Origin: Bacillota bacterium
GTDB lineage: Bacteria > Bacillota > Ch66 > Ch109
NCBI GenBank assembly: GCA_013178275.1
Contig: JABLWZ010000005.1
Location: 1 to 64,000 of the forward strand
Direction: 5' to 3'
Length of the DNA stretch: 64,000 bases
Part shown: in pieces, positions 39,625 to 43,230 of the stretch
Numbering within the stretch: position 1 is the stretch's first letter
Layout of the letters: every line of letters starts with the position of its first letter
Made by a program: the position numbers and the translations under genes
Notes under the pieces: generated by a model
Seen by the model: only the letters and a program-made list of their open reading frames with translations
The model's database searches: none
Told to the model about the DNA's origin: nothing

Positions 39625-40215
39625 ATGAAGATAGTCTCAGCGGAATTTGTAATCAGCGCGGCCAGCCCGAGTCAGTTTCCGGAGGAGGGATTCCCCGAAC
39701 TGGCCCTGGTTGGCCGTTCGAACGTCGGCAAGTCCTCACTGATCAACCGACTGGTGGGACGCCGCTCCCTGGCCAAGACCAGCAGCACCCCGGGCAAGAC
39801 CCGGCTCCTGAACTTCTATAGGATCAACAACGCCTGGCACTGGGTCGACCTGCCGGGCTACGGCTATGCCCAGGTGTCGAAGAGCATGCGCCGGGACTGG
39901 CAGGGGCTGATCGAAAAATACCTCAGGAACCGCCCCCAGCTGAGGGGCGTCATCCAGCTGGTGGACATCCGCCACCCGCCTACCGAAAACGACCGGCAGA
40001 TGTTCGAGTGGCTCACCCACTGGGGCTTCCCGGTGGTCGTGGTCGCCACCAAGGCGGACAAGATAGCCCGCGGCAGATGGCCCCAGCACCTGAAGACCGT
40101 CCGCGAGGGCCTGAACCTTTCACCGTCCTTCCCCCTGGTCCTATTCTCATCCGAGAAGGGCATCGGGGTAGAGGAGCTGGGTAAGCTGATAGAGGAGCTG
40201 CTGACATCAAAATGA
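39625..40215 (+). CDS. engB: Ribosome biogenesis GTP-binding protein YsxC/EngB
   Basis: ALVGRSNVGKSSLINRL, TSSTPGKTRLLNFY, DLPGYGYA. Confidence 0.97.
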   Translation: MKIVSAEFVISAASPSQFPEEGFPELALVGRSNVGKSSLINRLVGRRSLAKTSSTPGKTRLLNFYRINNAWHWVDLPGYGYAQVSKSMRRDWQGLIEKYLRNRPQLRGVIQLVDIRHPPTENDRQMFEWLTHWGFPVVVVATKADKIARGRWPQHLKTVREGLNLSPSFPLVLFSSEKGIGVEELGKLIEELLTSK

Positions 40216-41219
40216 GATACAAACGAGTAATCATTACCGGCTTTGGTGGACCGGAGGTACTCCAGGTTGTCGAAGAGACCGCTTTGCCAGAACCTGAGCC
40301 AGGCGAGGTGCGTATCAAGGTTCTTGCTGCCGGGGCGGCTTTCACAGATGTAATGATACGCAAAGGCATGTACCCGGATGTGAAGGAAAAGCCTCCCTTC
40401 TCGCCGGGCTACGACCTGGTCGGTGTAGTGGACAAATTGGGCGAAGGGATGACCCGGTTCAAGGTTGGCCAGAGGGTAGCAGACCTCACGGTTATAGGCG
40501 CGTACAGCGAGTACCTCTGCCTACCGGCCGACCGTTTGGTACCAGTACCTGACGGTCTTGATGCTTCGGAAGCTGTAAGCGTCATTTTGGCTTACGTGAC
40601 TGCCTATCAGATGCTCCACCGAATCGCCAAGGTCAAAGCCCGGCAGCGCATCCTGATACACGGTGCGGGTGGAGCGGTTGGTACGGCCATGCTGCAGTTA
40701 GGCAGACTGCTCGACCTGGAGATGTATGGGACAGCCTCCGAGTCTAAGCATGGATTGATCGCGCAGACGGGCGCGACGCCGATCGATTACCGGAGTGAGG
40801 ACTGGGTAACCCGCTTGTACGATTTGACCGGAGACGGCGTTGATTTCGTTTTTGATCCGATAGGCGGCGTCAGTTTCAAGCAGTCTTTAAAAGCCATCCG
40901 GCCAGGCGGCAAACTGGTGGCCTATGGCTTCTACAATGCGGTGATGGGCAGGGGCGGCAGCATACCGCTTGATTTCATTCGGGTTAAACTGTGGAATCTT
41001 CTGCCCAATGGTCGGTCAACGGCCTTCTATTCGATCGGCGCTTTACGCAAAAAAAACCCGGACTGGTTCGCTGAAGACCTGTCCAAGCTGTTCGCTCTGC
41101 TGGGGCAGGGTGACATTAAACCGGTCATAGCCGCTCGCATACCACTGGTTGAGGCCAGACGCGCCCACGAACTTATCGAAGCGGCAGGGGCGCAGGGAAA
41201 GATTGTATTGATCATATAA
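40212..41219 (+). CDS. Zinc-type/quinone oxidoreductase (medium-chain dehydrogenase family)
   Basis: ILIHGAGGAVGTAMLQLG, PGYDLVGVVDKLG. Confidence 0.9.
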   Translation: MRYKRVIITGFGGPEVLQVVEETALPEPEPGEVRIKVLAAGAAFTDVMIRKGMYPDVKEKPPFSPGYDLVGVVDKLGEGMTRFKVGQRVADLTVIGAYSEYLCLPADRLVPVPDGLDASEAVSVILAYVTAYQMLHRIAKVKARQRILIHGAGGAVGTAMLQLGRLLDLEMYGTASESKHGLIAQTGATPIDYRSEDWVTRLYDLTGDGVDFVFDPIGGVSFKQSLKAIRPGGKLVAYGFYNAVMGRGGSIPLDFIRVKLWNLLPNGRSTAFYSIGALRKKNPDWFAEDLSKLFALLGQGDIKPVIAARIPLVEARRAHELIEAAGAQGKIVLII

Positions 41220-41459
41220 CCCACCCGCCCCAGCGCCTCACGGCCCATTTCAAACAGCCATTCCTTCCCAATAAATCCCAGCCAATCCCCGGCCCCGTAA
41301 CTTATTGCGGGAGATAACCGTATATACTATAAAGGCGCTGTAATTCGAGTTTTAAGCTGAGATTAAGCTGACCATCAGCCTCTTTTAAGGCCGGTCTATT
41401 AAGCTGTACATAGATAAGACCAGTAACCCGGACTAAAGAACCAGGAGGAATAAACCGAT

Positions 41460-41540
41460 ATGCTTTATATAGCCAGTATCTCGATCTTTATATACCTGAC
41501 CATCAGCTACTGCTACCGGCGACTGTATGATCGGCAGTAA
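41460..41540 (+). CDS. 26-aa membrane micropeptide, module copy 1
   Basis: ggaggaataaaccgatATG; MLYIASISIFIYLTISYCYRRLYDRQ*; paralogous to 42016-42096. Confidence 0.65.
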   Translation: MLYIASISIFIYLTISYCYRRLYDRQ

Positions 41541-41559
41541 CGGCAGGGGGGACTCACCC

Positions 41560-41739
41560 GTGGGCGAAAACGCTCTGAAAAGGGAGCTGACAAAGACCCG
41601 GCATAGACTGATCTCACTGGAGGAGCAGCTAAAGCACAGCCGGAGCATCGTGGACCGGAGACGGATCGGCAGCCTGATCAAGAAGCAGTATTACCTGACG
41701 GTATTTTTAGAGACCTACTTAAACCGGAAGAACGTCTGA
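41560..41739 (+). CDS. ~59-aa basic small protein, module copy 1
   Basis: GTG after ggggggac; GENALKRELTKTRHRLISLEEQLKHSRSIVDRRRIGSLIKKQYYLTVFLETYLNRKNV; paralogous to 42116-42298. Confidence 0.75.
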   Translation: MGENALKRELTKTRHRLISLEEQLKHSRSIVDRRRIGSLIKKQYYLTVFLETYLNRKNV

Positions 41740-42015
41740 TTACAGCGGTCTGCTTCCAGGCGGTTAAGCGCACCCCTCTTGCCCGGGAGAGGTACGTTCA
41801 CCCGCTTCTTTACTCGTCCGGTCCCCTCAACCCCTAGCCCCGGCGTCTTAAACTGCACCGCAGCCAGCCTTCCCACCCCCTCGATTCCAAAAAAATTTTT
41901 AAAAATTGTGTCGACCGTCATTTTTTTTTACAAGACCGGTTTATTAAACTATGGGTAGCCCCAGAAAGTAAGACAGCCAGAAAGCGGTTTACAGAACCAG
42001 GAGGGAAAAACTGAT

Positions 42016-42096
42016 ATGCTGGGTGCAGTATTTATCTCGATTTTTATCTGCCTAACCATCTCCTATTGTCACCGGCGGCTGTATGATCAGCAATAA
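42016..42096 (+). CDS. 26-aa membrane micropeptide, module copy 2
   Basis: ggagggaaaaactgatATG; MLGAVFISIFICLTISYCHRRLYDQQ*. Confidence 0.65.
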   Translation: MLGAVFISIFICLTISYCHRRLYDQQ

Positions 42097-42115
42097 CAGC
42101 GGGGGGGACCCAAAC

Positions 42116-42298
42116 ATGGGTGAAATCGCTCTGCAGAAAGAACTGTCGAAGACCAAACAGGAACTCGTCTTACTGGAGGATCAGCTCAAGCACAGCAGCA
42201 GTTCTGCAGATAGAAGGCGCATCAGCGGCTTGATTAAAAAGCAGTACTACCTTACGGTACTGTTAGAGGCCTGCCTAAATAAAAGCACATCTCCATAA
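42116..42298 (+). CDS. ~60-aa basic small protein, module copy 2
   Basis: ATG after gggggggac; MGEIALQKELSKTKQELVLLEDQLKHSSSSADRRRISGLIKKQYYLTVLLEACLNKSTSP. Confidence 0.75.
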   Translation: MGEIALQKELSKTKQELVLLEDQLKHSSSSADRRRISGLIKKQYYLTVLLEACLNKSTSP

Positions 42299-42507
42299 TT
42301 CACTTTTCACAACGTTTGCATCAAATAAGATGCCGCTTATTCAAATGCAGCAGCTTTAAACATGCTTTAAAGCTGTTGGGTTATATTTTAGCCATTCCAT
42401 AACTCACTTTTCACGACCGCAAGCACAGCTTTTCTGGTTCTACCCCGGCTTTATTAACATATCCTGGTAATAAAGGAAATCTTTCTTACCGAGAGAGGGG
42501 GAGAGCA

Positions 42508-43230
42508 TTGAAAAGAAAAGGCCATTATCGGATAACCTGGTCCCCGATCAAGTCTTCTATCTTTCACACCCAGACCCTGGACTGGAACAAGGAATTCGGG
42601 GGAGACGAGGAGGGAAAGCCGGCCGCGAGGACCAAGCGCCGATTGAAACCGGTGGCCTGGCCGGCCAAGGCCGGGCTCAACTGGAGGAAGAAGGTGGTCT
42701 CCCGCCTGGTGAACCCCGACCTGCCAACCATAGAACCCGTCATGCGGCCCGCCAAAAGACCCGCCCGGAGGAGCTTGATACCTACGGTATCGGGAGAGGA
42801 GCGCCAGGGATTCAGGCTTTTGGCGGTTGACTGGCTGTCGGTGGTGTGGGGGTGGGTAGGAGCCCTGGTGGTTACCCTGGCGGCCCTGGCGGTCGCGGCG
42901 TTTTACGTGGCGTTCACCCCCGGCTCGGTTTACTACCTGAGCACCTACCTGTTCCTGAACAAGGTGGTCAGCCCCCTGCTGGGTGGCATACTCGCCGGGG
43001 TCAAGACCAGGCAGTCGGGGGTGATGGTCGGTTTTTGGGTAGGACTCGGTTACGGGCTGATCGTACTCGTCTTCCGCCTTTACGCGGGACTCTTCTCCTC
43101 GTTCTGGACCGAGGCCGTCACCGGGATGCTGGCCAGCATCTTCGCCGGCATAGTCGGCACCGTGCTGGGCGCCACCCTGAGCGGGGGCCGAAAGGCCTCG
43201 GAGGACCGGCGCGGCCTGGCGGTAGAATAA
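42508..43230 (+). CDS. Hypothetical membrane protein, charged N-terminus plus ~4 TM segments
   Basis: 240 aa ORF; WVGALVVTLAALAVAAFYVAFTPGSVYYLSTYLF. Confidence 0.75.
   Translation: MKRKGHYRITWSPIKSSIFHTQTLDWNKEFGGDEEGKPAARTKRRLKPVAWPAKAGLNWRKKVVSRLVNPDLPTIEPVMRPAKRPARRSLIPTVSGEERQGFRLLAVDWLSVVWGWVGALVVTLAALAVAAFYVAFTPGSVYYLSTYLFLNKVVSPLLGGILAGVKTRQSGVMVGFWVGLGYGLIVLVFRLYAGLFSSFWTEAVTGMLASIFAGIVGTVLGATLSGGRKASEDRRGLAVE

Follow-up and report, generated by a model that had tools for sequence, protein, structure and literature searches.

A tandemly duplicated pair of small genes encoding a putative membrane peptide and a basic, predicted two-helix protein in a Bacillota genome

Very small membrane proteins are known from several bacterial systems. 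Type I membrane toxins are hydrophobic, shorter than 60 amino acids (aa), and carry cationic residues at the C-terminus in addition to a putative transmembrane helix (PMC8309996), and other very small membrane proteins modulate larger membrane proteins, as MgrB (47 aa) does by inhibiting the kinase PhoQ (PMC8404706). Here we describe a locus that recalls both. It lies in a window of 64,000 nucleotides (nt), the whole stretch of DNA that was analysed, from a Bacillota bacterium (contig JABLWZ010000005.1, positions 1 to 64,000). Two tandem bicistronic copies, at 41460-41739 and 42016-42298, each carry a gene for a 26-aa hydrophobic peptide followed by a gene for a basic protein of about 60 aa. 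On comparison of the copies, both open reading frames (ORFs) are very likely real protein genes that were anciently duplicated.

The copies align without gaps at 74% identity over 295 nt, with an offset of 556 bp, a similarity far above chance. Searches of the host genome returned these two copies only, with no third, and no tandem array of short repeat units was found. The ORF coordinates and the 295-nt repeat agree with the sequences, gene order and tandem arrangement given in a preliminary description of this DNA. The features of the two copies are as follows.

41387..41405, + strand: shared upstream block of copy 1, AAGGCCGGTCTATTAAGCT, a promoter or operator candidate (from the copy alignment)
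41437..41448, + strand: leader of copy 1 with the Shine-Dalgarno-like AGAACCAGGAGG, same letters in both copies
41460..41540, + strand: 26-aa peptide of copy 1, with one hydrophobic stretch and the cationic C-terminus YRRLYDRQ
41560..41739, + strand: 59-aa basic protein of copy 1, GTG start, isoelectric point (pI) 10.5 (dN/dS against copy 2; structure alignment)
41932..41950, + strand: shared upstream block of copy 2, AAGACCGGTTTATTAAACT (from the copy alignment)
41993..42004, + strand: leader of copy 2 with the Shine-Dalgarno-like AGAACCAGGAGG, same letters in both copies
42016..42096, + strand: 26-aa peptide of copy 2, 73% identical to copy 1
42116..42298, + strand: 60-aa basic protein of copy 2, ATG start, predicted helices 2-26 and 30-58

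In both copies the spacer between the peptide and the basic-protein gene is 19 bp long. The two ORFs are in different frames, which rules out readthrough or fusion joining them. Each ORF is preceded by a Shine-Dalgarno-like stretch of its own (CAGGAGG or GGGGGG), as had been proposed. The proposal of a shared leader likewise held, and a block further upstream, AAGRCCGGTYTATTAARCT, is also common to both copies and occurs without mismatch in the host genome only at these two places. The basic-protein gene has an alternative in-frame ATG inside the peptide ORF (41527 and 42083); we consider the GTG or ATG that follows GGGGGG the likelier start.

The case for coding rests on how the copies differ. 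Differences at codon positions 1, 2 and 3 number 5, 7 and 9 in the peptide and 17, 12 and 28 in the basic protein. Nonsynonymous and synonymous divergence (dN/dS), estimated by three methods, was 0.23/0.81, 0.25/0.57 and 0.30/0.61 for the peptide (ratio about 0.3-0.5) and 0.24/2.09, 0.26/1.70 and 0.27/1.94 for the basic protein (ratio about 0.12-0.15); dS of the basic protein is near saturation, so these ratios are rough and the duplication appears old. We then redistributed the observed set of changes at random over the sequence and scored amino-acid identity and stops. The peptides share 19 of 26 residues, with 13.3 expected (P about 0.0008), and the basic proteins 36 of 59, with 26-28 expected (P about 0.001 or less). 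About 50% of the simulated peptide copies and 75-84% of the simulated basic-protein copies gained stops, while the real frames are all open. Because of the codon-position bias, dN/dS below 1 and the outcome of the simulation, both ORFs very likely encode proteins, and the purifying selection that had been suggested is borne out. The further suggestion that protein conservation exceeds that of the intergenic DNA is not simply so: nucleotide identity is 73% in the peptide ORF and 68% in the basic-protein ORF, and the 19-bp spacer, which contains the ribosome-binding site of the basic-protein gene, is as conserved (14/19).

The peptide contains one 17-residue hydrophobic stretch (mean hydropathy 1.78 in copy 1 and 2.25 in copy 2) and a cationic C-terminus. 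In length, hydrophobicity, putative membrane-spanning helix and C-terminal charge it agrees with the type I membrane toxins. The basic protein has a pI of 10.5 in copy 1 and 9.3 in copy 2. AlphaFold2, supplied with a two-sequence alignment of both copies, confidently modelled it as a hairpin whose two helices cover residues 2-26 and 30-58, with a mean predicted local distance difference test score (pLDDT) of 94.1. Foldseek searches of the PDB with this model gave no match below E 0.001, the best being the ferritin-like EncB at E 0.39. As helical hairpins resemble many folds, no function can be deduced from the model. Neither protein had a match above cut-off in Pfam, NCBIfam or PADLOC, including the anti-phage defence profiles of PADLOC-DB, or any match among PDB sequences, in line with the earlier statement that no known family is recognised. 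A single weak match to PHROGs (phrog_38364, function unknown, E 0.00074 over 26 residues) was obtained with copy 2 and was not reproduced by copy 1.

Searches for relatives elsewhere gave no homologue of either product in genomes of the same family and class (protein or profile searches; three other class genomes), and a search of 399 genomes of the phylum gave no convincing one. Four weak matches outside the host genome (L007-L010, E 0.001-0.008) were rejected, L009 and L010 as frames interrupted by stops and L007 and L008 as short stretches within frames of >1,000 residues. Two scans of 85k species with exact-word seeds, and a search of viral contigs with exact short peptide words, found no homologue, both reaching mainly close relatives; protein and DNA searches of phages and plasmids found none either. 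With E values of up to 1 allowed, the 26-aa profile weakly matched half of the genomes. These were taken as chance, as the best 19 had no recognisable 60-aa relative nearby and many were fragments of other frames. The pair is apparently lineage-restricted. The preliminary description had named as grounds for refutation a lack of both homologues and translation, or a 26-aa ORF not conserved next to the 60-aa gene in other genomes. The first of these holds in part, as no homologue was found outside the host genome. Evidence of conservation comes instead from the internal paralogue: both copies retain the 26-aa ORF next to the 60-aa gene.

Each copy, judged from its sequence, contains two coding genes, both under selection and in fixed order and spacing. 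To account for this we tentatively favour a membrane peptide and a cytosolic helical partner that jointly act on a membrane target. Each copy would be a two-gene operon. The peptide would cross the cytoplasmic membrane once. Basic residues lie on the cytosolic side of membrane proteins (the positive-inside rule), and the Arg-containing C-terminus is therefore probably cytosolic. The second gene would yield the predicted basic, cytosolic two-helix hairpin, which the peptide may hold at the membrane, directly or through one common membrane target, and together the two may modulate a membrane protein. The operon would have been duplicated long ago within the lineage and both copies retained. The selection on both ORFs, the identical 19-bp spacing, the hydrophobic stretch, the hairpin model and the shared upstream block and leader are all consistent with this proposal. 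Some points weigh against it: expression, localisation and interaction are all deduced from sequence and model; no homologue outside the host shows the two genes staying linked, and linkage seen in two tandem copies alone is a weak argument; and in Foldseek the hairpin models hit a wide range of unrelated helical proteins, none significantly. A broader formulation, a two-protein unit of a new kind in which the 26-aa membrane peptide serves as controller or anchor of a basic two-helix protein, duplicated in one spore-former lineage and possibly consisting of a membrane toxin and a protein antitoxin, strikes us as improbable.

Other explanations account for parts of the same evidence. A toxin-antitoxin-like pair, in which the peptide is toxic when overproduced and is neutralised by the 60-aa protein or by an antisense RNA, is unlikely, even though the size, hydrophobic helix and cationic C-terminus of the peptide fit type I features (PMC8309996) and a duplicated type I locus has a precedent in zorO/zorP (PMC3919570). 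No PADLOC, PHROGs or Rfam match points to such a system, and folding of the mRNA is not unusual (z 1.27 and -0.61). No antisense promoter candidate lies within 41395-42298, those nearby being at about chance level. Moreover, type I systems as described consist of a toxin gene and an RNA, which leaves the second selected protein gene to be explained, and we know of no precedent for a basic hairpin as the antitoxin of a membrane toxin. As Rfam gave no match and the folding is unremarkable, we also rejected an RNA element as the main explanation of the locus. The short ORF directly upstream at a fixed 19 bp could also encode a leader peptide: the act of translating it would regulate the 60-aa gene, at the level of translation or transcription, and the peptide would have no other role. 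We give this little credence, since most of the peptide is conserved, helix and C-terminus alike, no attenuator-like structure is predicted and a separate ribosome-binding site serves the 60-aa gene. Spo0E has a two-helix fold with the signature SxxxLD. The 60-aa protein might be a divergent Spo0E-like member of the sporulation phosphorelay, a hairpin phosphatase anchored in the membrane by the peptide: its size class and the layout of its two helices agree, and the genome encodes Spo0A together with a single Spo0E-like protein that scores over the family cut-off. This is very improbable, however: neither copy matches PF09388 (E up to 1) or is among the PF09388 matches of the host genome, SxxxLD is absent from the second helix, RRISGLIKKQYYLTV, on direct reading, the 50 structural matches listed include none to Spo0E, and alignment to the genome's own Spo0E-like protein leaves most of helix 2 in gaps.

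The host genome (4.77 Mb, 55 contigs; assembly contamination listed as 6.4%) encodes Spo0A, and the bacterium is therefore probably a spore-former. Two Spo0A-type C-terminal domains are present, on contigs 52 and 3 (L045, L046), reflecting either a paralogue or a mixed assembly. The window lies inside a 197-kb contig, where the two pairs have the following surroundings.

40212-41219: quinone-oxidoreductase-like gene, upstream of copy 1
42276..42387, + strand: dispersed repeat, its start overlapping the final codons of copy 2, with a terminator-like hairpin at 42348-42378 (terminator scan)
42508-43230: TIGR04086/DUF3792 membrane protein gene, downstream of copy 2 and followed by valS

Both pairs and the oxidoreductase gene form an insertion between engB on one side and TIGR04086-valS on the other. 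Among the three other genomes of the class, the engB-valS locus was readable in two. One (G001) has engB, TIGR04086 and valS in direct succession with no insertion; the other (G003) has engB, an unrelated transporter gene on the opposite strand, a TIGR04086-like gene and valS. The oxidoreductase gene was not found in any of the three. By this comparison, the segment 40212-42507 is specific to the lineage. Its G+C content is 0.43-0.59, against mostly 0.60-0.65 in neighbouring genes, which is compatible both with acquisition and with genes that arose anew in intergenic DNA of lower G+C.

The dispersed repeat of about 110 bp bears a AGCTTTAAACATTGCTTTAAAGCT-type hairpin. It is 79% identical over 113 bp to a place on contig 54 (163867-163979), with weaker places on contig 27 (40520-40605) and partly on contig 31, all outside evident genes as far as read; the window holds no further copy. 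Similarity between the two gene pairs stops at about 42279, close to where the repeat starts, and the basic proteins end differently (RKNV and KSTSP), for which arrival of the repeat at copy 2 is the best explanation and probably the correct one. A 22-bp direct repeat, TCCATAATTCACTTTTCACAAC (91%; 42292-42313 and 42396-42417), within or just after the dispersed repeat, flanks the terminator-like hairpin.

The pair thus appears genuine and, on present searches, is seen in one lineage only. An internal tandem duplication alone, with no outside homologue, marks a 26-codon ORF as very likely a protein gene. Lineage-restricted microproteins like these are easily overlooked by annotation, and two diverged copies offer a ready means of testing which residues are important.

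Compared with described systems, the peptide resembles MgrB, MgtR and similar regulators (PMC8404706, PMC6813294) in being very short, with one predicted membrane helix and a small charged tail; here, however, the gene after that of the peptide encodes a soluble basic hairpin, and we claim no sequence similarity. The membrane type I toxins Fst, LdrD, ShoB, ZorO and DinQ (PMC8309996, PMC3567139) offer parallels in length, hydrophobicity, cationic C-terminal residues and a duplicated locus, but the present locus has a second selected protein gene downstream, and neither an antisense RNA nor a structured mRNA was found. Spo0E-like phosphatases (PF09388) are alike in size, helical hairpin and occurrence in a Spo0A-encoding genome, and differ in that the basic protein has no profile match and no SxxxLD. 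The ferritin-like EncB and EncC (7s5c, 7s8t) are also two-helix hairpins of about 60 residues, with a TM-score of about 0.9 for EncB, although the Foldseek match (E 0.39) is not significant and identity is 12-14%.
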